DNA of 64,000 nt from an uncultured Amylibacter sp. (GTDB taxonomy: Bacteria; Pseudomonadota; Alphaproteobacteria; Rhodobacterales; Rhodobacteraceae): contig CANMGS010000001.1 in NCBI GenBank assembly GCA_947497475.1, positions 496,001 to 560,000 of the forward strand. The letters run 5' to 3'. Positions 1,547 to 26,235 of the stretch are shown piece after piece. Under the pieces are notes generated by a model. That model did no database searches. It saw only the letters and a program-made list of their open reading frames with translations, and was not told the DNA's origin. How positions within the stretch are numbered: the stretch's first letter is position 1; each line of letters starts with the position of its first letter. Both the position numbers and the translations under genes were made by a program.

Positions 1547-2320
1547 ATGCTATCCCGCCTAACCCGATTGATAGAAAGCAATGCTTTTCGCAATTTTATT
1601 TTAGGCATCATTATTTTCAACGCATTGTTATTGGGCTTAGAGACGTCTTCATCCATTATGGCCGAATTTGGTGGGCTGATTACCTTTTTAGACGCCGTTT
1701 GTTTGGCAATCTTTTGCATTGAAATTATTGCAAAGTTAGTCGTTCACAGATTTCAGTTTTTCCGCAGTGGTTGGAATATCTTCGACTTTGTTATCGTAGG
1801 TGTTGCACTGGTTCCAGCAGGACAATCTATATCTGTTCTACGTGCCTTACGTGTTTTACGTGTCTTTCGTGTACTTTCATCGGCTCCACGTCTACGGCGC
1901 GTTGTTGAGGGGTTTGTCTCAGCGCTGCCTGGTATGGGATCTGTCTTTTTACTAATGGCAATTATTTTTTACATCAGCTCTGTAATATCCACGAAACTGT
2001 TTGGTGCAGCTTTCCCAGAATGGTTTGGCGATTTGGGGTTGTCTGCATATTCACTGTTCCAAATCATGACACTTGAAAGCTGGTCGATGGGAATCGTGCG
2101 TCCAGTAATGGAAGTATATCCATTGGCTTGGGCATTCTTCATACCATTCATTCTTGCCACAACATTCGCTGTGGTTAACCTATTGGTCGGTTTGATCGTG
2201 AACTCCATGCAAGATGCCCACTCCGAAGAGGACAATGCCAAAACGGAAGATTATCGTGATGCGGTTTTAGAGCGTTTGGCTGTCATGGAGCAGAAATTGG
2301 ATAGCTTGAAAAAAGATTAA
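1547..2320 (+). CDS. Bacterial voltage-gated sodium channel (NaChBac/BacNav family)
   Basis: A 257-residue six-transmembrane protein. S1-S3 fall at roughly residues 14-32, 43-66 and 77-91. The S4 voltage sensor carries four arginines at three-residue spacing (R99, R102, R105, R108). S5 is at about 128-150, and the pore loop holds the selectivity filter TLESWSM at 175-181, the BacNav signature of sodium-selective homotetrameric channels (potassium channels have TVGYG). S6 is at about 195-221, and the C-terminus (about 236-256) looks like the tetramerising coiled coil of the family. The start has GGAG at a good distance. Expected location is the inner membrane, with a role in sodium-dependent motility or pH and ion homeostasis by analogy. 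The stop codon overlaps that of the convergent downstream gene (TTAA). Confidence 0.93.
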   Translation: MLSRLTRLIESNAFRNFILGIIIFNALLLGLETSSSIMAEFGGLITFLDAVCLAIFCIEIIAKLVVHRFQFFRSGWNIFDFVIVGVALVPAGQSISVLRALRVLRVFRVLSSAPRLRRVVEGFVSALPGMGSVFLLMAIIFYISSVISTKLFGAAFPEWFGDLGLSAYSLFQIMTLESWSMGIVRPVMEVYPLAWAFFIPFILATTFAVVNLLVGLIVNSMQDAHSEEDNAKTEDYRDAVLERLAVMEQKLDSLKKD

Positions 2321-3492
2321 ACAACCTGCCCCGCGGCCCAGCCAGATGACCATGCCCATTGGAAATTATACCCACCAAGCCAACCGGTCACATCAACCAC
2401 TTCGCCGATGAAATACAGCCCTTGAACGGAATTCACTTCCATTGTTTTCGCGTTCAATTCCTTTGTATCAACGCCACCCAATGTGACCTCTGCTGTACGG
2501 TATCCTTCGGATCCTACAGGTTTGATTTGCCAGTTATGAATGGCATCATCCAATTCCATTAAACGCTTGTCCGATTGGTCAGCAAGGTTTCCTTTGATGC
2601 CGATATTTGAAACCACGAATTGCGCTAATGCTTTGGGTAAATGATCTGCCAATGCGGTTTGTACTGCTATGCGCCCGTATTCTGATCGTTTCTTTTGTAA
2701 AGCCGCTAAGATTGGTTCCGAAAATGCAAGGTCAACACTCAGCGTGTCGCCCTCTTTCCAATAGGATGAAATCTGCAGGATTGAAGGCCCTGACAAACCG
2801 CGGTGGGTAAACAGTAAACCTTCTTCAAAACTGGTCCTACCATGTTTCACAGAAGCATATACTGACGTTCCTGACATTGCCGCAATCGGACCAAGGTCTT
2901 GTTCTGCAAAAGTCAGTGGCACCAAAGCTGGGCGCGTTTCAATAATGTTTAACCCAAAGTGTTTTGCGATCTCATACCCCAAGCCTGTGGCACCCATTTT
3001 AGGAATGGATTTACCACCACATGCCACGACAAGGCTCTCGCAATTTACAATGGCGCCCGAGAGCTTGACTATATATTGGTCTTGCTTCTGGACATCTAAA
3101 AAATCCGTTTCCAAAACAAGTTCAACATCTGCATCCTGCAAATGACCCAACAACATTTCGATAACTTGCGTAGATTTACCGTTGCAAAATAACTGACCTA
3201 ATGTCTTTTCATGATATTCAATACCAGCTTGAATAACCATATCAATAAAGTCCCATTGGGTAAAACGAGATAGGGCTGATAAAGCAAAGCGTGGATTTTG
3301 CGACAGGAATTTTTCACGACTGATATTTAGGTTCGTAAAATTACATCGCCCTCCACCAGAGATTCGGATTTTCTCCCCTACAGATTTGGCATGATCGACC
3401 AGCAACACGGAACGCCCTCTGCGCCCCGCTTCAATCGCGCACATCATCCCAGCCGCGCCTGCGCCAATTATAACAACATCATAATATTCCAT
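2317..3492 (-). CDS. BaiN/HI0933-like NAD(P)/FAD-dependent oxidoreductase
   Basis: A 391-residue flavoprotein. The dinucleotide-binding motif GAGAAG is at residues 10-15, and the family motif SGGGRCNFTN at 45-54. GGKSIPKMGATG lies mid-protein, and the C-terminal motif GGYNFQWAWSSG completes the FAD site. These match the HI0933/YhiN/BaiN family (TIGR00275-type flavoproteins), whose physiological substrate in most bacteria is unknown. I start it at the ATG before EYYDVVIIGAG, because FAD proteins of this family begin just before the first beta strand; the frame stays open to 3543 but those residues look non-coding. It is a single gene, convergent with the sodium channel. Confidence 0.88.
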   Translation of the reverse strand: MEYYDVVIIGAGAAGMMCAIEAGRRGRSVLLVDHAKSVGEKIRISGGGRCNFTNLNISREKFLSQNPRFALSALSRFTQWDFIDMVIQAGIEYHEKTLGQLFCNGKSTQVIEMLLGHLQDADVELVLETDFLDVQKQDQYIVKLSGAIVNCESLVVACGGKSIPKMGATGLGYEIAKHFGLNIIETRPALVPLTFAEQDLGPIAAMSGTSVYASVKHGRTSFEEGLLFTHRGLSGPSILQISSYWKEGDTLSVDLAFSEPILAALQKKRSEYGRIAVQTALADHLPKALAQFVVSNIGIKGNLADQSDKRLMELDDAIHNWQIKPVGSEGYRTAEVTLGGVDTKELNAKTMEVNSVQGLYFIGEVVDVTGWLGGYNFQWAWSSGWAAGQVV

Positions 3493-3590
3493 GGTTTCGC
3501 TTACGGTGAATAATCTTTTCACACAAGCGGGCAATTTACACAATTTTTGACTTGCGGACTCATCTTTCTCGGCGTAAACAGCGCCTCAGT

Positions 3591-3714: not shown

Positions 3715-4050
3715 TCAGTCAAAATATTGTTCACGATCCATTAAGTAATGCCATAATTCCACTTTATCATAAAATCGCTCATATAGTTCTGGTAGCAATT
3801 CTTTTGCTGCGTGCCGCGCAGGACTTGTGACACCTTTATGCATTGCATCACGGTCAGCATATGTAATCGCAAGGATCAATGGGATTGTCGGCCCATCAGG
3901 ATCTTGATCCATACCATAAAGCACTCGTACTTCTTCGGCACAAGCAAACTTGCGCCATAAAGGCGTTAGATGTTCGGATACCCACTCACGCATTGCTTGT
4001 TCTTGGCCTTCTTTGATCTTCCCACCGAAGATTGCATAACGTGTAATCAT
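3715..4050 (-). CDS. Small protein, probable dimeric alpha-beta barrel fold
   Basis: A 111-residue cytoplasmic protein, last gene of the seven-gene operon. The start is fixed by GAGGTGG seven bases upstream of ATG, one base after the stop of the TPP-enzyme gene. It has no signal peptide or membrane segment. The pattern of short beta strands (RYAIFGGKI, IPLILAITYA) alternating with charged helices, plus the length of about 100 residues, suggests a dimeric alpha-beta barrel like EthD or ABM proteins. I do not recognise the exact family. Its position implies a role with the operon's pathway, perhaps as a small isomerase, lyase or accessory subunit, but this is inference only. Confidence 0.6.
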   Translation of the reverse strand: MITRYAIFGGKIKEGQEQAMREWVSEHLTPLWRKFACAEEVRVLYGMDQDPDGPTIPLILAITYADRDAMHKGVTSPARHAAKELLPELYERFYDKVELWHYLMDREQYFD

Positions 4051-4051
4051 C

Positions 4052-5740
4052 TTATCCACCTCTATGTTTAAAACTGTCACGCCTAAATGAGTAAAGTGCA
4101 TTAGGATCGACTGAAACATCAATGACGGCAGGTTTCCCACACACAAGTGCTGCTTCGATTGCTGGCGCAACTTCTGATAATGTTTCCGCTTTATATCCTT
4201 TTGCGCCATATAATTCAGCAAGCTTATCAAAAGATGGGCTACTAATATCTGCGCCAATATATCGACCATTAAAGAAATCACGTTGATAGGCTTTTTCAGC
4301 CCCCCAGCACTTATTATTCATTACCACAGTTACTGTATTGATATTATGATCAACTGCCGTACTCAATTCGCTGACAGTCATGCCAAAGCCACCATCCCCC
4401 ATCAAACTAACGACAGGCCGCTCTGGTTGCGCACATTTCACACCAAGTCCGCATGCAAATGAAAATCCAACAAGGCCAAAGTCAAGCGGTGTAAATAAGC
4501 TTTTGGGTGTCCAGTAATTTAATGCATCCGTTGCTTGTAGACATAAAGTTCCGGCATCCATCGTAATCGCGGCATCTTTTGGCAAAACCTTGCGTAAAGC
4601 TTTGAATAAACCAGAGGGCTGCATAGGATTAGTTTCAATTGCATCTACATCACGCTTGGCAAGGTATGCTTTGCGCTCTTCTTGGAATGCTGCTGTCCAA
4701 ACATTTGCTTTGGTACGATCACCAAGTTGTCTTAAAGCTTTAGTTAGCTGACTTGCAACTGTCGGGGCATCTGCCCAAATTCCCAATTCAACGGGGAAAA
4801 AACGGCCAATTGCGGTTGGCTCCAATTCAATCTGTATGATCTTAGCATCCTGGTTGATATTATCGTATGTGTAAAAGGTTGCATTGAAGCCTAATCGCGT
4901 TCCAAGAGCTAGAATAACATCAGCCTCTTTAACTAATCTAGACGCGACGATATTTCCACGAGGGCCCATTTGACCAGCATTCAATGGGTGCCCAAATGGA
5001 ATTGCATCCCCATGACCAGGGGAAGTAACAATAGGGCAATTTAGCTGTTCTGCTAAGGCTAATGTAGCTTCATGACCACCAGTGTTTTTAATACCTCCAC
5101 CTGCAATTATGACTGGTTGTTTAGCGCTCGTAAGCAGCTGCACAGCCTGTGCGATATGATCAGGGTGACCTGCGGGTATTGATGTGTTTCTATATTTCTT
5201 TGGTGCTTGCAAAGGTTCAAAATCAGCCTGTGAAGCTAATACATCACGTGGTAAATTTAATTGCACAGGCCCTTTGCGTGGCGTCAAAGCCGTGCGGAAA
5301 GCTTCCCGAAAAAGTTCAGGCACACGATCAACACTGGGTGCTGTCCAAGTTTTTTTCGTTACTGGAGTGAAAAGTGATTGCTGATCCACCTCTTGAAACG
5401 CATCACGGTAAACATGGCCAGATGACAAAGCCCCAGCAATAGATACAACTGGCGAAAACGCCGCCATTGCTTGGCTAAGTCCTGTTACAAGGTTAGTTGC
5501 ACCTGGCCCATTTTGACCTGCTAATATTACACCTGCTTTTCCTGATGCGCGTGCAAATCCATCTGCCATATGCGCACCCGTACGTTCGTCATGTACGCCA
5601 ATAAAATTGATATCATTAGCATCGTATAACGCATCAAACATCTCCATAGTTGCAGAGCCTATCAAACCAAAAACATGACTTGTTTTTTCGACTTTCAAGG
5701 CTTCTACCGCGGCTTGACCACCGCTCATTTTAATTGTCAT
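4052..5740 (-). CDS. Thiamine-diphosphate enzyme, sulfoacetaldehyde acetyltransferase (Xsc)-like
   Basis: A 562-residue three-domain TPP enzyme. The N-terminal domain carries the conserved catalytic glutamate (E52) in HDERTGAHMADGFARASG and a GQNGPGATN loop. The C-terminal domain has the TPP motif starting GDGGF at about 448 and ending NN at 475-476. It continues WGAEKAYQRDFFNGRYIG, which resembles the WGAEK-x-x-Q region I associate with sulfoacetaldehyde acetyltransferases more than with acetolactate synthase. No ilvN-type small subunit and no phosphotransacetylase gene adjoin it, so neither acetolactate synthesis nor classical taurine degradation fits. It is co-translated with the hydrolase upstream (11-base overlap). 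Its substrate is likely a keto acid or aldehyde made by the rest of the operon; this is an inference. Confidence 0.8.
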   Translation of the reverse strand: MTIKMSGGQAAVEALKVEKTSHVFGLIGSATMEMFDALYDANDINFIGVHDERTGAHMADGFARASGKAGVILAGQNGPGATNLVTGLSQAMAAFSPVVSIAGALSSGHVYRDAFQEVDQQSLFTPVTKKTWTAPSVDRVPELFREAFRTALTPRKGPVQLNLPRDVLASQADFEPLQAPKKYRNTSIPAGHPDHIAQAVQLLTSAKQPVIIAGGGIKNTGGHEATLALAEQLNCPIVTSPGHGDAIPFGHPLNAGQMGPRGNIVASRLVKEADVILALGTRLGFNATFYTYDNINQDAKIIQIELEPTAIGRFFPVELGIWADAPTVASQLTKALRQLGDRTKANVWTAAFQEERKAYLAKRDVDAIETNPMQPSGLFKALRKVLPKDAAITMDAGTLCLQATDALNYWTPKSLFTPLDFGLVGFSFACGLGVKCAQPERPVVSLMGDGGFGMTVSELSTAVDHNINTVTVVMNNKCWGAEKAYQRDFFNGRYIGADISSPSFDKLAELYGAKGYKAETLSEVAPAIEAALVCGKPAVIDVSVDPNALYSFRRDSFKHRGG

Positions 5741-6527
5741 TCTCTACTCCTTGTAGAAATTTGAGAATAGGCTTTGTGAAACTGCTAGGAGTTTCCATTA
5801 GTCCTAAGTGCTGAAGCTTTGGAATGATCTGTAATTTCGCATTCGGGATTTCTGCAGCTATATCTTCAGCCATACTAGGTGTACTGCCTGTATCATTTTC
5901 ACAAGTCATGATAAAACTAGGTGCCACAATAGCAGGATCAGGCGAAATTAATTCGCGAACACCATGAGCTAAGACCCATGCTGTTTGAGCATAACTTTCA
6001 GCATCAACTTTCTCACGCCATTTGCGAACCAAATGTGGCCCTGAGCCAGTTAAAAGATAGTCTGGAGTAAACCAGCGCTTTAAAGCAGCATCAAAAGTTG
6101 AAAATGCGCCTTGTTCGCGAACAGAACGTGCACGAGATTCAACCCTTTCTTGAGCTTCTGATCCACGATTATGCGGGGAATTCAAAATTACGAGAGACGA
6201 TAGTTTATCTGGATAATCTAATGCAAATCTTCGGTTGATCATTCCACCAATAGAAAACCCAATTATATGCGCTTTATCCACACCTAATTCATCTAGTAAA
6301 TTGGCAAGCTGGTCAGAAAAAACAGTCAAAGAAGCCTCCATCGGCGGTGGCGAACTATCACCATGGCCAAAGAGGTCATATGCAATAATTCGATACCCCT
6401 CGAAGCCTTGTAAATGATCATCCCACAAGCCACGACATAAGCCTAGGCCATGGATAAGAACCAAAACAGGCCCTTCTTTCGGTCCTAAATCATCATAGGC
6501 CGTACCCTCTTTTGTTTTCTTAGACAC
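5730..6527 (-). CDS. Alpha/beta hydrolase
   Basis: A 265-residue alpha/beta hydrolase fold protein. It has the oxyanion motif HGLG (26-29), the nucleophile elbow GFSIGG with S92, an acid at D212 (CENDTGSTP) and the catalytic histidine H240 (LQHLGLME). This is a complete Ser-Asp-His triad. There is no signal peptide, so it is cytoplasmic. The start overlaps the end of the DUF1185 gene by 8 bases and its end overlaps the TPP-enzyme start by 11, indicating translational coupling. Enzymes like this (RutD, MhpC, PcaD types) act on ester, amide or C-C bonds; in this operon it probably hydrolyses the monooxygenase product. The substrate is unknown. Confidence 0.88.
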   Translation of the reverse strand: MSKKTKEGTAYDDLGPKEGPVLVLIHGLGLCRGLWDDHLQGFEGYRIIAYDLFGHGDSSPPPMEASLTVFSDQLANLLDELGVDKAHIIGFSIGGMINRRFALDYPDKLSSLVILNSPHNRGSEAQERVESRARSVREQGAFSTFDAALKRWFTPDYLLTGSGPHLVRKWREKVDAESYAQTAWVLAHGVRELISPDPAIVAPSFIMTCENDTGSTPSMAEDIAAEIPNAKLQIIPKLQHLGLMETPSSFTKPILKFLQGVENDN

Positions 6528-7116
6528 CTGCAGGATTGTCCACGTCGTGACCCATTTCTTTTAGGTCTTCGTAACGATCTCCAATACGGTGATTAGGATG
6601 ACCCCCTATAGATGCACCAAGAGCAACTAAAATCTCATCATCGGCAGGTGCATCTGGAACAGTTAAGTGAATGGTTTGATAATGCGACCGCTTCCCTCCA
6701 TCATCTTTGTGCATCAAAGGGATCATCATTGAGCACCCAGCTGCACCACGCGTATTTGAAAATGCCAAATATGATTTGGCATTAATTGCTTCGCGGAATT
6801 GATTGCCGAAATGCAGCGTGTGCGTCATAGCTTGAGCATGCTCAATCTCGCCACCCATACCAACAATCGATGCTTTACCGCAGCCTTCTAATTTATCACC
6901 AGTTACATCTAATAGCATATCTGTAAGCAGTTTACCTAAGCTAGGAGCCACGTCATGAATTTCAGGGCGTAGATTTTCAACGTATCCACGTCCAAACCAT
7001 GGGTTTTTGATAATCGCAATTGCAGCCACTAACTTAGTGGGTTTATCGACAGTCTTCCCACCTTCTTCAAAGGTAGTTTGTACACTTAAAACAGTACGGC
7101 GTATTTCGGCAGGCAT
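6520..7116 (-). CDS. DUF1185 ('amino acid synthesis' family) protein
   Basis: A 198-residue soluble protein matching, from memory, the DUF1185/AA_synth family. It starts MPAEIRRTVLSVQ and contains NPWFGRGYVENL, a GCGKASIVGMGGEIEHAQA stretch, SNTRGAAGCSMMIPLMHK and a C-terminal ALGASIGGHPNHRIGDR. The family name rests on an old annotation and no reaction is established that I know of. The start overlaps the stop of the LLM monooxygenase gene as TAATG, and the end overlaps the hydrolase gene. Conserved histidines and glycine-rich loops suggest an enzyme rather than a structural protein. Its co-occurrence with an LLM monooxygenase and a flavin reductase points to a catabolic step. Confidence 0.82.
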   Translation of the reverse strand: MPAEIRRTVLSVQTTFEEGGKTVDKPTKLVAAIAIIKNPWFGRGYVENLRPEIHDVAPSLGKLLTDMLLDVTGDKLEGCGKASIVGMGGEIEHAQAMTHTLHFGNQFREAINAKSYLAFSNTRGAAGCSMMIPLMHKDDGGKRSHYQTIHLTVPDAPADDEILVALGASIGGHPNHRIGDRYEDLKEMGHDVDNPAGV

Positions 7117-8147
7117 TATGCAAACTCCGGCATGACTTCATTGATAAATAATTCCATGGAGCGCTTCTGCACATCCATATCCAGCCCCATAGAAGCATAG
7201 TAAATGAAGGCATCAACACCCAATGCTTCATAGGCTTTCAGTTTTTCGATCACTTTTTCTGGTGACCCAAACATAAGGTTCTCTTCTAGCATTTTAGGAT
7301 CAACACGAACGTTACCCTCAAGCTCTTCAAACGGTACGCTCTCTGGAAATCCATTGATGACATCCCCTTTTTTCATCATCAAGTTACCGAATTTCCCTAG
7401 AACATTTCGTATTGCTGATACACATTGTGTCCGATCATCTTCGTTACCGTAAACAGCGGTATGGCGCATTAATGCAAATGTACCATTCCAGCCCCCTGCT
7501 TTAGCAATACTCTCATCTAACTGAACTCTATATTTCTCGGCTTCTGACATAGGCATCGTTAATGGCCAACACATGATATTACAGCCATTTTCCACAGCAT
7601 AATCGAATGTAATCGGAGATCTTGCAGCGACCCACATAGGTACTTCATCTTGAAGCGGTTTCGGACAAGATGTTGCCTTAGGGAATTGCCATTTATCACC
7701 ATTATGCTCTACATCACCTTTCCAAAGTTCTTGAACAAGCGGCAGCATCTCTTGCATATATTTATAGCTTTCAGGCTGCGGCAAACCAGGCTTCATACGA
7801 TCAAACTCACGCTGATATGCACCAGAGCCCAACCCCAAATCCAATCGTCCACCTGAGAGCAGATCAACCATCGCTGCTTCACCAGCTAAGTTAATTGGAT
7901 GCCAATATGCAGCGTTAGCTACACCACACCCAAGGCGGATGTTTTCTGTATGGTCTGCCCACCATGTCATGATTTGAAATGGGTTTGGGGCAATTGTCAT
8001 TTCCAAAGCATGATGCTCAGCGGCCCAGGCAATCTCAAATCCAGCCTTATCGGCCATTTTAACCATTTCTAGTGTGTGGTCACGCACAGCAACAATATCG
8101 ATATTGTCGTCCATGCGTTCTAAATTTATAGCAAGATGAAATTTCAT
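7116..8147 (-). CDS. LLM-class flavin-dependent monooxygenase
   Basis: A 343-residue luciferase-like (bacterial bioluminescence/SsuD/RutA superfamily) TIM-barrel protein. Supporting segments are AWAAEHHALE near residue 45, the family signature LSGGRLDLGLGSGAYQREF near 100-120, MWVAARSP in the middle, and a C-terminal FGSPEKVIEKLKAYEALGVD. These enzymes use reduced FMN delivered by a separate reductase to insert oxygen into sulfonates, heterocyclic amides or aldehydes. The reductase is presumably the first gene of this operon. The gene begins 3 bases after the aldehyde dehydrogenase stop and shares its stop codon bases with the DUF1185 start. The substrate cannot be read from the sequence. Confidence 0.9.
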   Translation of the reverse strand: MKFHLAINLERMDDNIDIVAVRDHTLEMVKMADKAGFEIAWAAEHHALEMTIAPNPFQIMTWWADHTENIRLGCGVANAAYWHPINLAGEAAMVDLLSGGRLDLGLGSGAYQREFDRMKPGLPQPESYKYMQEMLPLVQELWKGDVEHNGDKWQFPKATSCPKPLQDEVPMWVAARSPITFDYAVENGCNIMCWPLTMPMSEAEKYRVQLDESIAKAGGWNGTFALMRHTAVYGNEDDRTQCVSAIRNVLGKFGNLMMKKGDVINGFPESVPFEELEGNVRVDPKMLEENLMFGSPEKVIEKLKAYEALGVDAFIYYASMGLDMDVQKRSMELFINEVMPEFA

Positions 8148-8150
8148 GCG

Positions 8151-9626
8151 TTACCTCGGTTTAAAAGGGTTAGAGATTGGTTCGTCAGACAAGTTCATCC
8201 AAACTGTTTTAGGACGGGTGTAATCATAAATCGCTTGCAAACCACTTTCACGGCCATAACCAGAACTTTTCATCCCTCCAAATTCAGCAATTGGGCTAAT
8301 CACACGATATGTATTCACCCATACGATACCTGCCTTGATCTTTTTTGACATACGAACGGAACGAGCAGAGTCTCTTGTAAATATGCCAGCAGCAAGCCCA
8401 TGCTTTGTGTCATTCGCCAACCGCAAAACTTCATCTTCAGTCTTGAAACGCTGTACGGCCAAAACTGGTCCAAATAATTCTGTATCCACAATTGTCATAT
8501 CTTGACTTGGGCATTCTACGATCGTGGGTTCAAAATACAGTCCATCAATATCAGGACGCTTTCCACCATGAAGCAACTTACCACCTTCTTTTTGAGCCAA
8601 GTTTACTTGATTTTGAATATGCTCCAGTTGACCTTGCGTACATAGCGGCCCCATTTCAGTCTCATCAGCTTGCGGGTCTCCGATAGAAATATTACGCGCA
8701 ATTGCGATCATTTTTTCCAGAAATTCATCTGCGATATCTTCATGTAAATAAAGCCTAGAACCAGCAACACAACTTTGTCCTGTCGCACCAAATATTCCAG
8801 CTACAGAGCCATTCACAGCGCTTTCAATATTAGCATCGTCAAATACTATAAAGGGCGATTTCCCCCCCAATTCCAAAGAAACTTCTGCAAAATTTTCTGC
8901 GGAATTGCGCACAATATGTCTTGCCGCAACTGGACCGCCTGTAAACGCAATTTTTGCGACCAAAGGATGCTTCGTCAAAACGTCACCACATGGTGCAGCG
9001 TGCCCAGTTATAATATTCACAACGCCATCAGGTATCCCTGCTTTTGCAATCAATTTACCAAATTCAAGGAGTGGAGCAGAAGCATGCTCTGATGCTTTTA
9101 AAACTATTGTATTACCTGCTGCCAATGCAGGTCCAATTTTCACAGCACTTAAAAACATCTGGCTGTTCCAAGGCACAACAGCAGCGACAACGCCTATTGG
9201 CTCACGGTCCGTAAAAACAAACATATCAGGTTTGTCTATCGGTAATGTGTCACCGTGGATCTTATCAGCAGCACCAGCATAAAAATGCAAGAATTCGGCA
9301 ATATATGTTGCTTGCCATGCAGTCTCTTTAAACATCTTACCTGTATCAGTGGTTTCAATACGGCCAAGATGTTCAGAATTTTCAGCTAACAAATCTCCCA
9401 AACGACGCAAACATTTACCGCGTTCTGTTGGCGTCATATCTCCCCATGGACCCGACAAAGCCGCATTCGCAGCGCTTACGGCCCGATTAACATCATCTGT
9501 CGTAGCTTCTGGTACTGTTGCCCAGATCTGAGACGTTGCAGGGTTTATGCTATCAAAAGAAGAACCATCTGATGCATTCACCCATTTACCGTCAATTAAC
9601 ATCGAGTATGTTTGAACTTCAGTCAT
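8151..9626 (-). CDS. NAD(P)-dependent aldehyde dehydrogenase
   Basis: A 491-residue member of the classical aldehyde dehydrogenase superfamily. The active site is complete: N154 in VPWNSQMF, E252 in LELGGKSP and the nucleophile C286 in ATGQSCVAGSR. The length and the C-terminal FGGMKSSGYGRESG are typical. It oxidises an aldehyde to the acid in the cytoplasm, presumably an intermediate of this operon. The start overlaps the flavin reductase stop by 4 bases. It resembles betaine- and 2-hydroxymuconic-semialdehyde-type dehydrogenases in length and motifs, but I cannot assign a substrate. Confidence 0.92.
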   Translation of the reverse strand: MTEVQTYSMLIDGKWVNASDGSSFDSINPATSQIWATVPEATTDDVNRAVSAANAALSGPWGDMTPTERGKCLRRLGDLLAENSEHLGRIETTDTGKMFKETAWQATYIAEFLHFYAGAADKIHGDTLPIDKPDMFVFTDREPIGVVAAVVPWNSQMFLSAVKIGPALAAGNTIVLKASEHASAPLLEFGKLIAKAGIPDGVVNIITGHAAPCGDVLTKHPLVAKIAFTGGPVAARHIVRNSAENFAEVSLELGGKSPFIVFDDANIESAVNGSVAGIFGATGQSCVAGSRLYLHEDIADEFLEKMIAIARNISIGDPQADETEMGPLCTQGQLEHIQNQVNLAQKEGGKLLHGGKRPDIDGLYFEPTIVECPSQDMTIVDTELFGPVLAVQRFKTEDEVLRLANDTKHGLAAGIFTRDSARSVRMSKKIKAGIVWVNTYRVISPIAEFGGMKSSGYGRESGLQAIYDYTRPKTVWMNLSDEPISNPFKPR

Positions 9627-10120
9627 TGAGCCGCCTGCTGTTTAAAAACCTGATCGTAGCGCCCATCTAGATAGGTTAGGGGTACATTCGCCCCAGAAGC
9701 TACATGATTAACCAAACCGAAACAGACTAGATGTGTTCCAGCTATGACCGTATTTGCCAAGGTACACGAAAAGGATGTGGCACCTGGTAACCCTGGTAAT
9801 TCTCCAGAAGTCGGAACACCTTCAAATCTATCCGTTAAATTGCAATCATCGCGCCCAGCAAAACGATCAGCAACATCCGAAGCTCCAGCTGGTAATACAT
9901 TAATTTTGAATGCGCCGTTTTCTTTGACCAATCGCGCTATTTTTGATGATGCGTTCAAGCAAGCTAACACCATAGGCGGATCAGCCGATACTGAGCAAAA
10001 AGAGGAAACTGTGCTCCCGTGGCGCCCAGCAGGCCCATCCGTTGTAACCACACTTACACTATTTGCGACACGCCGCATTGCAGCGATAAATTCGTCACGA
10101 CTCATTGTTCTTTGTCCCAT
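9623..10120 (-). CDS. Flavin reductase (FMN/FAD:NAD(P)H), monooxygenase partner
   Basis: A 165-residue flavin-reductase-like (RutF/HpaC type) protein. The family segments are FIAAMRRVANSVSVVTTDG at the start, VSSFCSVSADPPMVLACLN around 40-60, FKINVLPAG, FAGRD and a C-terminal GTHLVCFGLVNHV. It supplies reduced flavin and is the obvious partner of the LLM monooxygenase two genes downstream. The start at 10120 is chosen because AGGAGAAG precedes it by 6 bases; the upstream in-frame stretch to 10252 overlaps the divergent LysR gene and lacks family similarity. It is the first gene of the operon. Confidence 0.9.
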   Translation of the reverse strand: MGQRTMSRDEFIAAMRRVANSVSVVTTDGPAGRHGSTVSSFCSVSADPPMVLACLNASSKIARLVKENGAFKINVLPAGASDVADRFAGRDDCNLTDRFEGVPTSGELPGLPGATSFSCTLANTVIAGTHLVCFGLVNHVASGANVPLTYLDGRYDQVFKQQAAQ

Positions 10121-10152
10121 GATTCTTCTCCTGAATAAGACTATAGGGCGAA

Positions 10153-10214
10153 AAGTTATATCTGAATAACGAATAATTCTGGACATTATATTCGAAATGT
10201 TCGAAGTATAACTT
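10153..10214. promoter_or_regulatory. Divergent control region with nested inverted repeats (LysR site)
   Basis: The interval between the flavin reductase and LysR starts carries an outer inverted repeat AAGTTATA (10153-10160) / TATAACTT (10207-10214). Inside it are two TTCGAA palindromes (10191-10196 and 10200-10205) separated by ATG. TATAAT is present on the minus strand at 10185-10190 as a likely -10 box for the operon. LysR regulators usually bind such dyads next to their own gene, so control of both directions is likely. Confidence 0.6.
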
Positions 10215-11072
10215 ATGAATATAAATGAACTGAAAACATTTTTAGCGATCATTGAAACAGGCAGTCTTGTGCGTGCTTCGCAGAATTTGAATGTAACGCA
10301 GTCTACTGTGACAGCCCGCCTTAAAGTTTTAGAGGATGAATTAGGGCAAACATTAATTAACAGACATAAGTCTGGCGCAACACTTACACCAGCAGGTGTA
10401 AGATTGGAGCGTTACGCATTAACGATTTCGGATCTATGGGGACAAGCCCGACAAGAAACAGCACTACCAGATGGAATGAATGGCATTTGCAACATTGCCT
10501 GTGAACCCGATCTATGGCCTGTTTTAGGAGAACGGTTCTTTAGCTATTTACGTCAAAACTGCCCAGAGGTAGCAATTTCTGTTTGGTTGGGAAACCAATC
10601 CGAAATTGCTGATTGGATGGCAGGGGGAAAATCCGATATAGCCTTTACTTACCGCTCGGCCATGGGTGCACGCGAAAAGCAAATTGAGCTGCCTGCCGAT
10701 ACATTAATCCTAGTATCAACTCTGCCAAACAGTCCTATGCGATTTGATCCCAATTATGTCTTTGTCGAAGCTGGTGAAACTTTTGGTCGTGAACATGCCG
10801 CAGCTTATGCTGATGCTGACACAGCACGTTTGAGTTTCAACAGCGCACAAATAGGATTACAACATCTTAAAACATCAGGCGGCAGCGCATATTTACCCAT
10901 GCGATTGGTGGAACATGAATTGCAAAAAGGTAAGCTGTTTAAAATACCGCAAGCTCCTGAGTTTAAGCGCAGAATTTACCTAACCGCTAATACCGCAGCA
11001 CTTGATGCTTGGGATTGGTTCGAGAATTGTTTGTCTTACGTTACAACCAAAAGTGAAATTAACGAAAATTAA
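10215..11072 (+). CDS. LysR-family transcriptional regulator
   Basis: A 285-residue LysR regulator. The N-terminal winged helix-turn-helix covers about residues 3-60, with LKTFLAIIETGSLVRASQ and the recognition helix in NVTQSTVTARLKVLEDELG; an effector-binding domain follows. The N-terminus fits the family start (about ten residues before the HTH). No strong ribosome-binding site precedes the ATG, and the start abuts the right arm of the inverted repeat. It is divergent from the seven-gene operon and is therefore its probable regulator, sensing a substrate or intermediate. It is convergent with the GMC oxidoreductase gene, with 4 bases between stops. Confidence 0.9.
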   Translation: MNINELKTFLAIIETGSLVRASQNLNVTQSTVTARLKVLEDELGQTLINRHKSGATLTPAGVRLERYALTISDLWGQARQETALPDGMNGICNIACEPDLWPVLGERFFSYLRQNCPEVAISVWLGNQSEIADWMAGGKSDIAFTYRSAMGAREKQIELPADTLILVSTLPNSPMRFDPNYVFVEAGETFGREHAAAYADADTARLSFNSAQIGLQHLKTSGGSAYLPMRLVEHELQKGKLFKIPQAPEFKRRIYLTANTAALDAWDWFENCLSYVTTKSEINEN

Positions 11073-11076
11073 CACA

Positions 11077-12660
11077 TCAGCGCATTTTTATTATGTCCGC
11101 AGCTTTTTCTGCAATCATAATGGTTGGGGAATTTGTATTCCCTGAAGTAATCGTAGGCATCACTGAAGCATCAACCACCCTTAGATTTTCAATTCCACGC
11201 ACTTTAAGGTCAAAATTTGTAACAGCTCGGTCATCTGTCCCCATACGGCACGTACCTACAGGATGAAAAATAGTTGTGCCTATATCACCAGCAGCTTTGA
11301 TCAGTTCTTCATCACTGTCACCTGCGTGCTCTGGCAAAAATTCTTCTGCAGCATATTTTGCAAAGCTTGGTTGGTTCACAATGCGGCGTGTTAATCGTAT
11401 TGCATTTGCAGCAACAACTTGGTCCTCAACTTCTGACAAGTAATTTGGTGCAATTTTAGGATGCACTATTGGGTCGGGTGAGGCAATCTCTACTGTCCCA
11501 CGGCTTTGCGGCCGCAGGTTACAAACGCTAGCAGTGATTGCAGGGAAATCATGAAGTGGTTGTCCAAATGCGGGTAATGATAACGGCTGAACATGATATT
11601 CCAAATCGGGCGTAGCTTTATCTTTCGATGAATAGGCAAAAGCCGCTAATTGACTAGGAGCCATAGACATTGGGCCCGTTCGTTTCAAAGCATACTCAGC
11701 CCCAATTTTGAATTTACCCCATAAAGATTGGGTCATTGTATTTAATGTCTTTGCACCCTTAACTTTATAAGCACATCTAATTTGTAAATGGTCTTGTAGA
11801 TTGCGCCCAACATCAGAGGCTTCGTATATAACATCAATCCCCATTTCTTGTAATAATGCGCCTGGGCCAATTCCAGACACCTGTAGCAATTGAGGAGATC
11901 CTATTGCGCCCGCTGATAAGATCACTTCGCTTTTAACATAAATCTCATCACCACCACACAATTTTACGCCTAAAGCTTTTTGATCTTTTATAATAATACG
12001 CGCCACTTGTGCGTTTGTGCGCACTGTTAAGTTTTTACGGTTTTTCACAGGGCGCAAGAAGCCTTTAGACGTATTCCAACGCCATCCAGACTTTTGGTTC
12101 ACTTTGAAATACGCAACACCATGATTATCGCCGTCGTTCAAATCATCCGAATGAGGAATGCCTTCTTCTACACAAGCCTTAGCAAAATCGTCCAAGACAT
12201 CCCAGTGTAGGCGTTGATCTTCAACACGCCACTCACCGCCCGTACTGTGCGCATCATTAGCACCAGCAAAATAGTCTTCAGACTTCTTAAAATAAGGTAA
12301 GACATCATCCCAACCCCAACCCACGCCGCCCAATTGGCGCCACCCATCATAATCTTGCGCTTGGCCACGCACATATAGCATACCATTGATTGACGAACAT
12401 CCACCTAAGACACGACCACGCGGATATAACAATTGGCGCCCATTTAACCCAGCTTCGGCTTCGGTTTTAAAACCCCAATCTGTGCGCGGGTTTCCAATGC
12501 AATACAAGTAACCAATTGGGATATGAATCCAGTGATAATTATCTTTTCCACCTGCCTCTAATAAAAGAACGTTTTTGCTTGGGTCTTCGCTAAGACGATT
12601 GGCTAAAACACAGCCCGCAGAGCCTGCACCGATGATCACGTAATCATATGGTGTCGTCAT
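11077..12660 (-). CDS. GMC-family oxidoreductase (choline/alcohol dehydrogenase-like)
   Basis: A 527-residue FAD enzyme of the glucose-methanol-choline family. It has the N-terminal GAGSAGC (11-17) FAD motif, the GMC signature around GRVLGGCSSINGMLYVRG and the second signature SAGAIGSPQLLQVSGIGP. The catalytic region is FHPVGTCRMG with a downstream NTNSPTIMIAEKAAD. Family members oxidise choline, alkanols or terpenoid alcohols and pass electrons to the respiratory chain. It starts 6 bases after liuC ends, on the same strand, with no terminator between, so it is probably the last gene of the leucine operon. That placement suggests an alcohol feeding branched-chain catabolism rather than choline, but this is inference. 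Confidence 0.88.
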   Translation of the reverse strand: MTTPYDYVIIGAGSAGCVLANRLSEDPSKNVLLLEAGGKDNYHWIHIPIGYLYCIGNPRTDWGFKTEAEAGLNGRQLLYPRGRVLGGCSSINGMLYVRGQAQDYDGWRQLGGVGWGWDDVLPYFKKSEDYFAGANDAHSTGGEWRVEDQRLHWDVLDDFAKACVEEGIPHSDDLNDGDNHGVAYFKVNQKSGWRWNTSKGFLRPVKNRKNLTVRTNAQVARIIIKDQKALGVKLCGGDEIYVKSEVILSAGAIGSPQLLQVSGIGPGALLQEMGIDVIYEASDVGRNLQDHLQIRCAYKVKGAKTLNTMTQSLWGKFKIGAEYALKRTGPMSMAPSQLAAFAYSSKDKATPDLEYHVQPLSLPAFGQPLHDFPAITASVCNLRPQSRGTVEIASPDPIVHPKIAPNYLSEVEDQVVAANAIRLTRRIVNQPSFAKYAAEEFLPEHAGDSDEELIKAAGDIGTTIFHPVGTCRMGTDDRAVTNFDLKVRGIENLRVVDASVMPTITSGNTNSPTIMIAEKAADIIKMR

Positions 12661-12666
12661 GTTTCA

Positions 12667-13431
12667 CTACCCTTCTAAAAACTGCTCTATTAATTTTTGT
12701 GCCTCATCACTCTCCCAGCAATCGGCCAATGCGTTAATAGTCGAAGTGATTTTTGCAGCCTCACCTTCACTTTGTAAATCGTGTAGAAGCGCTTTTGCCT
12801 TTGCAACTGCATTCGGTGCTGTTTTTAAGATCGCTTTTATTTCACTTTCAATCAATGCATCCATTTCAGCAGCAACGCATATCGTGCTTACCAAACCCGC
12901 CCTTTGCGCAAAATCACTGTCGAATATCTTAGCGCTAAAAAATATTTGACGACTAAAAGATTGAGGCACTTTGCTTAGCACAAAAGGGCTTATCGTTGCA
13001 GGGATTAACCCAAGCTTTGTTTCAGTCAGTGCAAACTTCAAATCTGGCAATGCGAATACAACATCACATACGGCCATCATGCCAATACCGCCACCAAAAG
13101 CATTACCCTCAACACGGCCAATCAGAGGTTTAGGGAACTGGTTCAAACATGACAACATGTTTGCAAGAACAGTTGCTCCAGCAATCTTGCCTTTCCGATC
13201 CAAGTTGGCTTGCTCGCGCATCCAGTTCAAATCGGCACCAGCACAAAAACTTTTACCATTGGCACATAAGATTGCTAAGCGCACACTATCATCGGCAGCC
13301 AGAGATGTAATCGCCTCAGTAATCTCAATCATCATTTGCGCGCTAAGCGCATTATGTTTCTCTGGCCGTGCTAAAGTTAACGTCGCAATGCCACGTGTAT
13401 CTTTTACAACTGTGATCGTTTCGTATTTCAC
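12667..13431 (-). CDS. liuC: Methylglutaconyl-CoA hydratase (LiuC)
   Basis: A 254-residue crotonase-fold protein. It contains ARPEKHNALS, the oxyanion-hole segment SFCAGADLNWM, GNAFGGGIGMMAVCD and LTETKLGLIPATISPFVL. The last segment, ending ATISPFV, is characteristic of LiuC-type 3-methylglutaconyl-CoA hydratases, which hydrate 3-methylglutaconyl-CoA to HMG-CoA in leucine breakdown. The context supports this, since the gene overlaps the HMG-CoA lyase gene by 4 bases and follows both methylcrotonyl-CoA carboxylase genes. Confidence 0.9.
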   Translation of the reverse strand: MKYETITVVKDTRGIATLTLARPEKHNALSAQMMIEITEAITSLAADDSVRLAILCANGKSFCAGADLNWMREQANLDRKGKIAGATVLANMLSCLNQFPKPLIGRVEGNAFGGGIGMMAVCDVVFALPDLKFALTETKLGLIPATISPFVLSKVPQSFSRQIFFSAKIFDSDFAQRAGLVSTICVAAEMDALIESEIKAILKTAPNAVAKAKALLHDLQSEGEAAKITSTINALADCWESDEAQKLIEQFLEG

Positions 13432-14294
13432 TTATGTGTCCCCAAAGGCCATGATGATAGAATTGCTTGTGCTGCTTCTAATTTTTCCATACTCAGATCT
13501 GTTTCCCATCCATTCTCTTTTAGCATTTTCACTAAAGAAATTGTGGATAAATTTCCCTTTGCACCTGGTGCATACGGACACCCACCCAAGCCTCCAATAG
13601 CGCTATCAAAAGTACGCAAACCATATGGCAATGCAGCTTTAACATTTTCCAATGCATTTCCCTTTGTATCGTGAAAATGACCAGCAAGCTTAGATGGCTG
13701 CTCTATTGGTACTATATAATCCAGTAGGCGTTTGATGTCAGCAGTGTCCGCTGAACCAATCGTATCGCCCAATGATACTTCATAACATCCCATATCAAAG
13801 AGCGCCTGTGTTACATGAAGAACAGCTTCCGCATCTATTTCACCTTCATATGGGCAAGCAACAACGCAAGACACATAACCGCGCAATTTTATCTTATTTT
13901 CCAAAGCTCCCTTAGCAACTGGAGCAAAACGTTTTAAACTTTCTTGAATGCTACAATTGATATTCTTTTGACTAAAACTTTCTGATGCGGAACCAAAAAT
14001 AGCAACTTCATCCACAGCAACACTTAATGCAGTTTCTAACCCTTTCATATTTGGGGTGAGTGCTGCGTAAGTTACATTTTCTTGTCTCTTTATTCCTTGC
14101 ATAACAGCAACAGCATCTGCCATCTGTGGAACCCATTTAGGGGAGACAAAACTGGTCGCTTCAATTTTTTTCAAACCTGTTTCAGCAAGAGCTTCAATAA
14201 GCATAATTTTATCGTTGGTAGGAATAACAGTGGATTCATTTTGCAAACCGTCGCGCGGGCCAACCTCATAAACGGTAACAAAGTTATCCTTCAT
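13428..14294 (-). CDS. liuE: Hydroxymethylglutaryl-CoA lyase (LiuE)
   Basis: A 288-residue TIM-barrel lyase. It starts with EVGPRDGLQNE (10-20), has the metal-binding HFHDT (206-210), and the signature GLGGCPYAPGA with the catalytic cysteine C239. It cleaves HMG-CoA to acetyl-CoA and acetoacetate, the last step specific to leucine. Length matches the bacterial family. The start overlaps the biotin carboxylase subunit stop by 4 bases and the end overlaps liuC by 4, so the three are translated together. Confidence 0.95.
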   Translation of the reverse strand: MKDNFVTVYEVGPRDGLQNESTVIPTNDKIMLIEALAETGLKKIEATSFVSPKWVPQMADAVAVMQGIKRQENVTYAALTPNMKGLETALSVAVDEVAIFGSASESFSQKNINCSIQESLKRFAPVAKGALENKIKLRGYVSCVVACPYEGEIDAEAVLHVTQALFDMGCYEVSLGDTIGSADTADIKRLLDYIVPIEQPSKLAGHFHDTKGNALENVKAALPYGLRTFDSAIGGLGGCPYAPGAKGNLSTISLVKMLKENGWETDLSMEKLEAAQAILSSWPLGTHK

Positions 14295-16252
14295 TCATCT
14301 GCCTCTACCATTTGAATAAGTAATTGGCCTTGTTCAACCGCATCAGATACACCACACATAACAGATTTAACTTCCCCGTTTTCAGCAGCAACTACAACAT
14401 GCTCCATCTTCATTGCTTCTACAGCGAAAAGTGGTGTTCCTTTTTCTACGACTTGACCATCTTTGACATGAACAACGGTCACCACTCCTGTCATTGGTGA
14501 TATAATTTGACCTGTATCCTGCGTATGATCCAATCCTAAAGCCAACAGATCAAGCATTTTGAATTCAAATTGACTGGTTCCGGATTTTACGGTCGCTATA
14601 TCTTTATGTCGCGAGATAAGAGCACTATAATTTGCTGCATCATTTTTTGCAGTGACACAGTTGCTATCTATATGGACATTATTAAATGTGATTTCTTGAT
14701 CTTTAAATTTAACATTTATTGTCTGAGAACCAAGAAAACAGATAATCCCCTCAAGAAGGGTGTCATCAAAGACCATATTATATGCATGATTAGTCTGTCC
14801 CCAAAGTTGCCAACCTAACCGAGGAGCAGACATATCCAATGGGTTTAATGTTAGGAAAGCTGCCATAATATCAAACAAGGATGGTGTCACTTGAGTGGTT
14901 AAATCTTCTTGCTTTCGCGCAATCAAACCAGTGTCGAAAGCCCCATCTACAAAATCCTGATCCTGTGCTAAGTTAGAAAGGAAGCTAATGTTATTTCTGA
15001 TACCGGTACAATACGAATTGTCCAAACCATTTACCAAAGCAGCAAGAGCGTTAGATCGTTCTGATGCATGCGTCGTAATTTTCGCAATCATTGGATCATA
15101 GAATGGGCTAACGGCGTCTCCACTTTGTATACCTGTATCAATACGGCAATCTTGTGCGAATTTTATATTATGTACGGTACCAGGTGATGGCTTAAAATCA
15201 TCTTGTGGGTCTTCGGCATAAATTCGAGCTTCGAATGCATGACCATTCATTGTAATTTCATTCTGTGACAATGGCAAAGTCTCGCCAGAAGCAATGCGCA
15301 ACTGCCATTCTACCAGATCAACACCAGTAATTGCTTCGGTAACAGGATGCTCAACCTGCAAACGTGTATTCATTTCCATGAACCAAAAACCGTCTGTACG
15401 AAGTGGACCAGAGCCATCAACGATGAACTCAATAGTACCTGCCCCTTGATAATTTATCTTCTTAGCGGCTTCTATCGCTGCCTCTGTCATAACAGTACGA
15501 ACATCAGCAGGCATTGCAGGTGCTGGTGCTTCTTCAATGACTTTCTGATGACGTCTTTGCAATGAACAATCCCGTTCATACAAATGTACAACATTGCCAT
15601 GGTTGTCACCAAAAACTTGGACTTCAATATGACGTGGTGAGCTTATGAACTTCTCAATCAACACATGTGGATCACCAAAGCTGGCTTGACCTTCTCGTTG
15701 TGCTGAAGCTAATGCATCTTCAAAATCAACAGCATCTTCAACCAGACGCATACCTTTACCGCCGCCACCCGCGCGCGCTTTGATAAGAACAGGGTATCCG
15801 ATATTTACGGCTTCAGCTGCTAAAAAATCAATAGCTTGATTTTCTCCGTGGTACCCAGGTACGACAGGGACATTTGCATCCTCCATCAATCGTTTAGCTT
15901 CATCTTTCAAACCCATCTTCCGAATAGAAGTTGCCGACGGGCCTATGAAAACTAGACCAGCTTTGGTCACTTGTTCCACAAACTCTGGGTTTTCGGATAA
16001 AAAACCATATCCAGGATGGATCGCTTGCGCACCTGTATCGAGTGCAGCTTGAATAATACGGTCCCCTCTCAGGTAACTATCCTCACTGGGCGCAGCTCCT
16101 ATCAAAACAGCTTCGTTCGCTTTTTTTACATGTAATGCATCGACATCGGCCTCAGAATATACGGCAACCGTTTTCATACCCAGTTTATGAGCTGTCTTCA
16201 TGATACGGCAAGCAATCTCACCACGGTTAGCAATTAGGATTTTATCAAACAT
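14291..16252 (-). CDS. liuD: 3-methylcrotonyl-CoA carboxylase, biotin-containing alpha subunit
   Basis: A 653-residue protein with a biotin carboxylase N-terminal half (FDKILIANRGEIACRIM at the start, the glycine-rich ATP-grasp loop KARAGGGGKGMRLV, MNTRLQVEHPVTE) and a C-terminal biotinyl domain. The biotinylation motif EAMKMEH places the modified lysine at about K615. It carboxylates biotin with ATP and bicarbonate for transfer by LiuB. Being paired with LiuB, isovaleryl-CoA dehydrogenase and HMG-CoA lyase genes identifies it as the methylcrotonyl-CoA enzyme rather than propionyl- or acetyl-CoA carboxylase. Confidence 0.95.
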   Translation of the reverse strand: MFDKILIANRGEIACRIMKTAHKLGMKTVAVYSEADVDALHVKKANEAVLIGAAPSEDSYLRGDRIIQAALDTGAQAIHPGYGFLSENPEFVEQVTKAGLVFIGPSATSIRKMGLKDEAKRLMEDANVPVVPGYHGENQAIDFLAAEAVNIGYPVLIKARAGGGGKGMRLVEDAVDFEDALASAQREGQASFGDPHVLIEKFISSPRHIEVQVFGDNHGNVVHLYERDCSLQRRHQKVIEEAPAPAMPADVRTVMTEAAIEAAKKINYQGAGTIEFIVDGSGPLRTDGFWFMEMNTRLQVEHPVTEAITGVDLVEWQLRIASGETLPLSQNEITMNGHAFEARIYAEDPQDDFKPSPGTVHNIKFAQDCRIDTGIQSGDAVSPFYDPMIAKITTHASERSNALAALVNGLDNSYCTGIRNNISFLSNLAQDQDFVDGAFDTGLIARKQEDLTTQVTPSLFDIMAAFLTLNPLDMSAPRLGWQLWGQTNHAYNMVFDDTLLEGIICFLGSQTINVKFKDQEITFNNVHIDSNCVTAKNDAANYSALISRHKDIATVKSGTSQFEFKMLDLLALGLDHTQDTGQIISPMTGVVTVVHVKDGQVVEKGTPLFAVEAMKMEHVVVAAENGEVKSVMCGVSDAVEQGQLLIQMVEADE

Positions 16253-16263
16253 CAGCCATACCC

Positions 16264-19447: not shown

Positions 19448-19449
19448 GC

Positions 19450-20616: not shown

Positions 20617-21220
20617 ACGATTTCCCTTTGGTTTCATATCCAACACTGCGTAAAGTCAGGTCTACATAATTATCTTCAATTTGCTTTTGAGAGAGGCGGC
20701 CATCTGCACTGAACCAAGTATTGACACCCGTCAGTGATGCGATGATTGACATCGCTGCAACATGAGCATCAGGCGTGTTAAATTCACCTGTATTGATCCC
20801 ATCACGGATGATCTGACGCAAAACATCTTCATAGGCACGACGCTGGCTTTCGATTTTTTTATGACCATCATCCTCTAAGGAGCGTAGCTCCATATAAGAG
20901 ATGAACACGGCCTGCGGTTTTTCGATATGAAATCGAATATGAAACCGAGTGAAAGCTTCCAACTGCTCTGCAGCTTGCCCTCTAGAAATTTGTTCACTCC
21001 ACGCTGCCATTAAGCCATCCATGTGATCCATTAAAAGGCGAACAAGGATTTGCTGTTTATTTGGGAAGTGATTGTATAAAGCGCTGACATTCACACCAAC
21101 AGCCTCTGCAATCTGTCGCATAGAAACCGCCGCATACCCATATTGCGCAATCAATGGCAAAGCAGTCGATAATATTGCAGCTTTGGTTTCTGAACCAATG
21201 GATCCTTTAACGCGCGCCAT
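20609..21220 (-). CDS. TetR-family regulator of the branched-chain acyl-CoA operons
   Basis: A 203-residue TetR protein. The N-terminal helix-turn-helix spans about residues 10-57, with the recognition region in [24 protein letters not shown] ligand domain with acidic and aromatic helices follows. It is the first gene of the liu operon and its stop overlaps the liuA start. A palindrome (ATGAACG-TT-CGTTCTT) sits at the -10 box of its own promoter, and the same 20 bases recur before the thiolase gene. This fits an autoregulated repressor responding to a branched-chain or other acyl-CoA, like LiuQ or PsrA-type regulators. The ligand is not deducible here. Confidence 0.9.
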
Positions 21221-21236
21221 GTTAATCCTTAATTAA

Positions 21237-21278
21237 ATGAACGTTCGTTCTTATAATATAAAAAAACGCACCCGTCAA
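21237..21278 (-). promoter_or_regulatory. tetR-liu operon promoter with overlapping TetR operator
   Basis: On the minus strand, TTGACG (plus-strand 21273-21278) is followed after exactly 17 bases by TATAAG (21250-21255), a good housekeeping-type promoter. The palindrome ATGAACG-TT-CGTTCTT (21237-21252) overlaps the end of the -10 box, a position expected to block RNA polymerase. The 20-base sequence 21231-21250 is repeated identically at 26230-26249. Confidence 0.75.
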
Positions 21279-21294
21279 TATTTACGACCTCAAT

Positions 21295-22065: not shown

Positions 22066-22067
22066 AA

Positions 22068-24253: not shown

Positions 24254-24273
24254 ATTCTATCCTTTTCAACTGT

Positions 24274-25026: not shown

Positions 25027-25029
25027 TCC

Positions 25030-26211: not shown

Positions 26212-26235
26212 AATTGTTCCTAACCACACAATTAA

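Follow-up and report, generated by a model that had tools for sequence, protein, structure and literature searches.

Among the described systems closest to the operon reported here, a seven-gene block in a 64,000-nucleotide stretch of DNA from an uncultured Amylibacter sp., are pathways for the breakdown of N-methylated betaines. Genes for trigonelline catabolism, tgnABCDE, were reportedly described in Acinetobacter baylyi in 2018 (in PNAS). A second operon, said to be called homABCDER and to have been reported in Nature Microbiology in 2026, reportedly serves the catabolism of homarine (N-methylpicolinate) by means of five enzymes and a regulator in Rhodobacterales, SAR116 and SAR11. According to a published figure legend, TgnB corresponds to Q6F9F6, and a paper on homarine catabolism by environmental bacteria is cited in PMC13390433. 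For DUF1185 (PF06684), a family that also occurs in the seven-gene block, a role in amino-acid metabolism has been proposed from fold and gene context in PMC2954203, and its present name, 'amino acid synthesis', has the same basis.

Here, we analyze this block, which occupies positions 3715-10252 on the minus strand of the window, i.e., of the whole 64,000-nucleotide stretch (positions 496,001 to 560,000 of contig CANMGS010000001.1, assembly GCA_947497475.1; host genome size 3.02 Mb). In reading order it encodes a flavin reductase (FR), an aldehyde dehydrogenase (ALDH), a luciferase-like flavin-dependent monooxygenase (LLM), a PF06684 protein of 'amino acid synthesis' name (AmS), an alpha/beta hydrolase, a thiamine diphosphate (ThDP)-dependent enzyme, and a small protein. 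Its internal junctions are overlaps of 1, 4, 8, and 11 bases and gaps of 1 and 3 bases. Open reading frames (ORFs) and Pfam matches place all seven genes and a divergent LysR gene where a preliminary description, made from the letters of the sequence, had put them, and in the same tight packing. The block is very likely a catabolic operon. We give about even weight to the reading that, under LysR control, it serves to degrade an N-methylated quaternary ammonium compound (betaine), e.g., of marine algae. A literature search recognized no description of the exact gene set, the contents of the trigonelline and homarine papers lying outside its reach.

Conservation was assessed in the best 80 of 524 relatives of the ThDP gene (74-87% identical), a choice that leans to close orthologues. 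Neighbors were counted in the 53 loci with at least 6.5 kb to the left and at least 1.5 kb to the right of this gene, the 27 with shorter flanks being dropped. Neighbor families are single-linkage clusters named by eye, with examples only checked by models; LysR relatives were counted at 40% identity or above near the ThDP gene, and an OpuA-like ATPase cluster was left out of the counts, being mixed with other ABC ATPases. In 50 of these 53 loci the hydrolase gene is the immediate upstream neighbor of the ThDP gene, and nearby are found genes for an LLM (45/53), an ALDH (40/53), a LysR regulator (38/53), AmS (37/53), a CMD-family protein (18/53), the small protein (15/53), and an arginase-family protein (6/53). 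Of the 45 loci with both LysR and ALDH, 17 have FR in between, by a rule that missed one FR match at L213. The operon holds together most tightly at the hydrolase-ThDP pair; FR is optional, and AmS and the barrel protein are, like FR, accessory. The condition that the preliminary description had set for its own refutation, an order not conserved beyond the strain, thus did not come true, and its catabolic operon is supported; FR, AmS, and the small protein were each detected at only part of the loci.

By record title, the carriers include Rhodobacteraceae/Roseobacteraceae, SAR116, Rhizobiaceae, metagenome-assembled genomes (MAGs) of Granulosicoccaceae, other Gammaproteobacteria, and Acidimicrobiales; many loci are MAG contigs, so that the taxon of a record may be wrong, and 'marine' is taken from names. 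Because the gene order is shared by other families and, on the Acidimicrobiales MAG contigs, by another phylum, the operon is more than a chance arrangement. Within a sample of 33 genomes of the genus, the ThDP gene is present in 3, its own included. Operons bearing it were read in its own genome (G000), in G033 (no FR found), and in G003 and G028 (no small protein found). A class-level sample of 386 genomes, in which up to 3 candidates per genome were scored for ThDP and up to 5 for LLM, gave a ThDP match at E <= 1e-100 in 18 genomes, 7 of which, besides the host, reach 68-79% identity. The gene lies inside the module, whole or in large part, in 5 of these 7: with AmS and the small protein in G331 and G404, with no AmS found in G239 and G204, and with FR in G325, where the LLM is on another contig beside another ALDH. 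Compared with a plasmid collection, the operon DNA was covered to 80% by none of 193 matching records.

The ThDP enzyme is placed by sequence in a clade of its own beside sulfoacetaldehyde acetyltransferase (Xsc). As first described, it shares the WGAEK motif of Xsc; it also retains the catalytic glutamate seen there, and the Xsc models are its best NCBIfam models. Its score nevertheless stays below the Xsc cut-off (TIGR03457, 423.4 vs 676.4 bits) and below that for acetolactate synthase (TIGR00118, 389 vs 538.35). In a 43-row tree, annotated Xsc proteins (L231, L232, L234) and a protein of the host genome (L235) form a 12-row clade with a support of 100 in the Shimodaira-Hasegawa-like approximate likelihood ratio test (SH-aLRT), and the window protein falls into a separate 22-row clade (98), with a program warning of long branches; this tree and the LLM tree below are quick trees with SH-aLRT support only. 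On model scores and tree together, we reject the Xsc identity suggested by the preliminary description, and that of acetolactate synthase as well. No phosphotransacetylase gene was seen in the operon or beside it in the window, as had been noted, and none in the genome matches TIGR00651 above cut-off. This says little, because the genome's other Xsc-like gene, 79% identical to annotated Xsc, lacks one by the same test.

These results bear directly on the proposal that the operon degrades an organosulfonate with an Xsc-type ThDP enzyme. Its attractions are the common WGAEK motif and the Xsc models as best matches, a TauD-like gene (by eye) at 5 of the 53 judged loci, and, at L089, a pyridoxal-phosphate enzyme that resembles cysteine desulfhydrase or cysteate lyase by eye and has computed support for the PALP fold only. 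Sulfonate use is disfavored because the ThDP enzyme scores below the cut-offs of the Xsc and acetolactate synthase models and an Xsc-like gene exists elsewhere in the genome; the SsuD model is also missed (34.7 vs 518.2), so that the kinship with the Ssu system drawn earlier is not supported, and we consider such a pathway very improbable. The closest solved structures to the ThDP enzyme are those of BbmA (E 1e-77), on whose reaction a literature search gave nothing. Its nearest relatives outside its own clade (44-48% identity) lie near MttB-like genes: the order is MttB, class III aminotransferase, two FAD oxidoreductases, and ThDP enzyme in Ruegeria, and MttB, a gene resembling old yellow enzyme (by eye), and ThDP enzyme in two further genomes, with MttB about 2 kb upstream in a third. 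At L087 (in G301; 8661-14417), a 71% identical ThDP enzyme is flanked by an esterase-like hydrolase (Abhydrolase_3) on one side and a TRAP transporter (by eye) on the other, with no LLM or ALDH gene near it.

Table 1. Genes of the operon and its divergent regulator (positions in the window)
Feature	Positions	Strand	Basis
LysR-family regulator, divergent	10215-11072	+	Pfam HTH_1 and LysR_substrate above cut-off
Flavin reductase (FR; FMNH2 supply)	9623-10252	-	Pfam Flavin_Reduct 105.6 bits
Aldehyde dehydrogenase (ALDH)	8151-9626	-	Pfam Aldedh 538.9 bits
LLM (luciferase-like) flavin-dependent monooxygenase	7116-8147	-	Pfam Bac_luciferase 178.6 bits; clade II of LLM tree
PF06684 / DUF1185 protein (AmS)	6520-7116	-	Pfam AA_synth 204.3 vs cut-off 27 bits
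Alpha/beta hydrolase, distantly PcaD-like	5730-6527	-	Pfam Abhydrolase_1 99.3 bits
ThDP-dependent enzyme	4052-5740	-	Pfam TPP_enzyme N/M/C
Small ferredoxin-like barrel protein (EthD/ABM/NIPSNAP-like)	3715-4050	-	AlphaFold model and Foldseek

The remaining protein families support the sequence of oxidation and hydrolysis proposed initially (Table 1). The best NCBIfam model of the ALDH is betaine-aldehyde dehydrogenase, below its cut-off (480.8 vs 668.6), and the hydrolase is nearest to PcaD models (PcaD 141.5 vs 255.85). The small protein starts best at 4050, a 188-amino-acid ORF at 3715-4281 beginning too early; a Pfam scan gave no match for it. Its AlphaFold model (mean pLDDT 93.1) matches dimeric ferredoxin-like barrels in Foldseek, namely an EthD-family protein, olivetolic acid cyclase, 4-methylmuconolactone methylisomerase, and NIPSNAP proteins. 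Because the predicted model is such a barrel, the earlier label 'small barrel protein' is apt. The FR ORF overlaps LysR only with its most upstream start, and the true start probably lies inside the listed ORF. A promoter scan counted 11 promoter-like sites, fewer than the 15.3 in shuffled sequence, and 13 terminator-like sites, more than the 7.3 there.

Two readings of the substrate take these families as their starting point. The first, in which a pyrimidine or cyclic amide would be opened in the manner of Rut, draws on a set of LLM, flavin reductase, and hydrolase that is similar in plan to the Rut system, a kinship also named in the preliminary description. It is opposed by RutF (89.2 vs 254.75) and RutD (68.9 vs 238.5) scores far under cut-off, by the absence of RutA from the 25 of 31 LLM models listed, and by a match of the LLM to the RutA structure in the PDB of just E 8e-4, and is less probable still than sulfonate use. 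The second is a Baeyer-Villiger reaction, in which the LLM would oxidize a ketone, perhaps that of an aliphatic betaine, to an ester or lactone for the PcaD-like hydrolase to open. It would suit the closeness of the hydrolase to PcaD models, the resemblance in fold between the small protein and 4-methylmuconolactone methylisomerase, the remote match of the LLM to diketocamphane monooxygenase, and the carnitine-dehydrogenase-like and keto-acid-cleavage genes that accompany clade II relatives of the LLM. The match to that monooxygenase is, however, very weak (E 1.6e-4), and the operon has no alcohol dehydrogenase between hydrolase and ALDH; we regard this chemistry as unlikely.

AmS, the single PF06684 match in the host genome, has the fold of the DUF1185 crystal structures (Foldseek: 3byq, E 5.7e-19; 2qtp, E 1.5e-14). 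A RidA-like role was considered and dropped, since Foldseek gave DUF1185 structures only at E <= 0.001. An LLM gene lies near 14 of 15 aligned AmS proteins from chosen loci, the exception being L054 of Nitratireductor, with AmS, hydrolase, and succinate-semialdehyde dehydrogenase (SSADH) genes and no LLM. Invariant in all 15 are E90, E92, H93, H99, H145, and R177. More distant AmS proteins (32-39%) occur as diverged tandem pairs without an LLM module at L049 and L051, so the LLM-module context does not cover the whole family.

Evidence for a betaine comes from the neighborhoods of other copies. Near the ThDP gene, the judged loci have a ProW-type permease (12/53), an OpuAC-type binding protein (9/53), or an MttB-like gene (4/53). 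L228 is the locus whose transporter proteins were model-tested: they pass OpuAC (175.5 vs 21.2) and proV (353.1 vs 326.6), ProW-type being named by eye. MttB-like genes, 40-51% identical to the Ruegeria one, are found at L089, L162, L183, L207, and L221. With the dimethylglycine-dehydrogenase (DMGDH)-like gene of L033 as probe, relatives of 69-76% identity appear at L089, L183, and L207, and L165 has a piece of one at a contig end (82% over 62 amino acids); the proteins of L033 and L089 contain FAD and folate-binding (GCV_T) domains. L183 and L207 each have an MttB-like gene adjoining a DMGDH-like gene of opposite orientation, within a few kb of the ThDP gene. The betaine reading also draws on the MttB-like genes near the 44-48% identical ThDP relatives, on the five-gene plasmid modules described below, and on the carnitine-type clusters in clade II of the LLM tree. 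Because betaine-type transporter, MttB-like, and DMGDH-like genes adjoin a minority of copies, a betaine is favored and is more likely than the sulfonate or cyclic amide that the preliminary description had named as plausible substrates.

From families, gene order, conservation, the ThDP clade, and the betaine-type neighbors at a minority of loci, we infer every reaction of the pathway and its substrate as follows. FR, acting in cis or in trans, would supply FMNH2 to the LLM, which would oxygenate the betaine and open or cut it. The ALDH would convert the resulting aldehyde to an acid, the hydrolase would cleave an amide, lactone, or ester, and the ThDP enzyme may split the resulting carbonyl compound into central metabolites, with AmS and the barrel protein helping with unstable intermediates. 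As is reported for trigonelline, the first step may be the opening of an N-methyl heteroaromatic ring, a possibility that we hold with considerable doubt; oxygenation of an aliphatic trimethylammonium compound ranks below it and is rather unlikely.

Several observations weigh against this pathway. No gene for a betaine transporter, MttB, or a close DMGDH adjoins the operon in the window, where the best DMGDH match reaches 31%, and the betaine-type neighbors occur in a minority of the judged loci. Among the relatives of the LLM, hydrolase, and ThDP enzyme, we identified no close one with a demonstrated reaction, and Foldseek with AmS gave no match at E <= 0.001 beyond DUF1185 structures and hence no hint of its reaction. 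In G301 and G376, the ThDP gene (71%) stands outside such a module, and neither genome belongs to the 31 of 386 that gave an LLM match at E <= 1e-50. Conversely, G020 has LysR, ALDH, LLM, AmS, and hydrolase genes with no ThDP gene there; a DMGDH-like gene faces this ThDP-less module.

A further reading is that the operon is the homarine operon introduced above and hence already described. The window core likewise has about five enzymes and a LysR regulator, occurs in Rhodobacteraceae and SAR116, and is accompanied by betaine-type transporters at some loci. The homarine route reportedly leads to N-methylglutamate, however, and requires no ThDP step, and G281, which is SAR11-like in size and G+C content, has the clade I type of LLM and no ThDP gene in the stretch read. 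A probe for N-methylglutamate dehydrogenase (a sarcosine-oxidase-like subunit of Acinetobacter junii, of unproven function) matched 27 of the 33 genus genomes at E <= 1e-150, generally with two hits of 34-38% identity, and is non-discriminating. According to PMC8269262, Ruegeria pomeroyi grew less effectively on homarine than on trigonelline, which would fit the homarine reading, as would the ThDP relative of just 44% identity on the R. pomeroyi megaplasmid, the one replicon searched. Taken together, identity with the homarine operon appears improbable.

Returning to the betaine pathway, we advance, tentatively and at somewhat under even confidence, that the operon represents an undescribed, cross-phylum, mostly marine route that ends in ThDP cleavage by a family separate from both Xsc and acetolactate synthase, and that DUF1185 is tied to LLM-type oxidative opening of N-methylated compounds and not to amino-acid synthesis. 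If so, the hydrolase-ThDP pair with LLM and ALDH would provide a genetic marker for a step that recurs in the oceanic turnover of organic nitrogen, spanning Rhodobacteraceae, SAR116, Granulosicoccaceae, and Acidimicrobiales records. The ThDP enzyme family would gain an assignable reaction, and DUF1185 a context.

Elsewhere in the window, a sarcosine oxidase operon lies at 38540-43697 on the plus strand (soxB 682.8 vs 529.45, soxA 1331.2 vs 1164 bits). On the minus strand, a block at 11077-26229 appears by eye to be of the leucine/isovalerate catabolism type (biotin carboxylase, HMG-CoA-lyase-like, acyl-CoA dehydrogenases) and adjoins a GMC gene that is choline-dehydrogenase-like, scoring under the model cut-offs, and 2317-3543 encodes a TIGR00275 flavoprotein ('aminoacetone oxidase family', 403.7 vs 183.8 bits).

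Related LLM modules occur on plasmids. AmS proteins of 63% and 65% identity lead the order AmS-hydrolase-FR-LLM-ALDH on Sinorhizobium meliloti pSymA and a Leisingera plasmid, and one of 58% leads the identical five-gene set on an A. junii plasmid; this set is probably of the trigonelline (tgn) type. The pSymA module adds NIPSNAP, an ABC transporter, and an SSADH known by annotation; in A. junii the additions are SSADH, which passes its model (TIGR01780, 694.7 vs 646.35), and, by eye, a permease and a porin. The A. junii module (L060, 1250-17473) lies between SSADH and sarcosine-oxidase-like genes that stay below cut-offs (soxB 451.5/529.45, soxA 868.5/1164). In an LLM tree of 61 of 111 rows, in which L151-L230 rows at 60% or above were thinned to every sixth, one branch (support 100) divides two clades. 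Clade I holds the pSymA, Leisingera, and A. junii loci, relatives in the window's own genus, and G281 (a 1.4-Mb genome, 30% G+C in the stretch read). Clade II holds the window LLM, Agrobacterium, Shinella, and Mesorhizobium plasmids, and carnitine-type clusters (L046, L056). On the Shinella plasmid (L058, 40-13892), two LLM modules, one per clade, adjoin and share one AmS gene between them. L046 (482-12060), in the ThDP-type genome G028, is a second LLM module (LLM 66%, ALDH 73%) that includes a gene read by eye as Rieske-like; its crotonobetainyl-CoA hydratase (297.7 vs 500) and L-carnitine dehydrogenase (312.1 vs 414) matches are below curated cut-offs. Clade II thus combines clusters with carnitine-type genes and the window with its ThDP enzyme; therefore, the LLM module seems, as judged from these neighborhoods, to be reused with differing downstream enzymes, here the ThDP enzyme.

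Set against the known systems, the window operon resembles Xsc-type genes in the WGAEK motif, catalytic glutamate, and overall family of its ThDP enzyme, but departs from them in model score, in clade, and in the presence of another Xsc-like gene in the genome. To the homarine operon, as reported, it would be alike in marine setting, presumed betaine substrate, and gene number. With the tgn-type set it shares FR, LLM, ALDH, and an alpha/beta hydrolase together with AmS, yet its LLM is only 37-39% identical to the three plasmid LLMs, across the main split of the tree (support 100), its gene order differs, and it adds the ThDP enzyme and another small barrel protein; SSADH adjoins the set in S. 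meliloti and A. junii, whereas none was read beside the window operon. The Agrobacterium, Shinella, and Mesorhizobium plasmid cluster has the same order FR-ALDH-LLM-hydrolase, with AmS nearby in all three, NIPSNAP in Agrobacterium, and glycine-betaine-type ABC genes a few kb away in Agrobacterium (farther off in Shinella), but its LLMs are 44-47% identical to that of the window and it has no ThDP enzyme. There is also the cluster of Aminobacter, Parasedimentitalea, and G028, with LLMs of 64% and 66% and ALDHs of 73% in Aminobacter and G028, together with AmS and hydrolase, in which CaiD-like, carnitine-dehydrogenase-like, and keto-acid-cleavage genes take the place of the ThDP gene.

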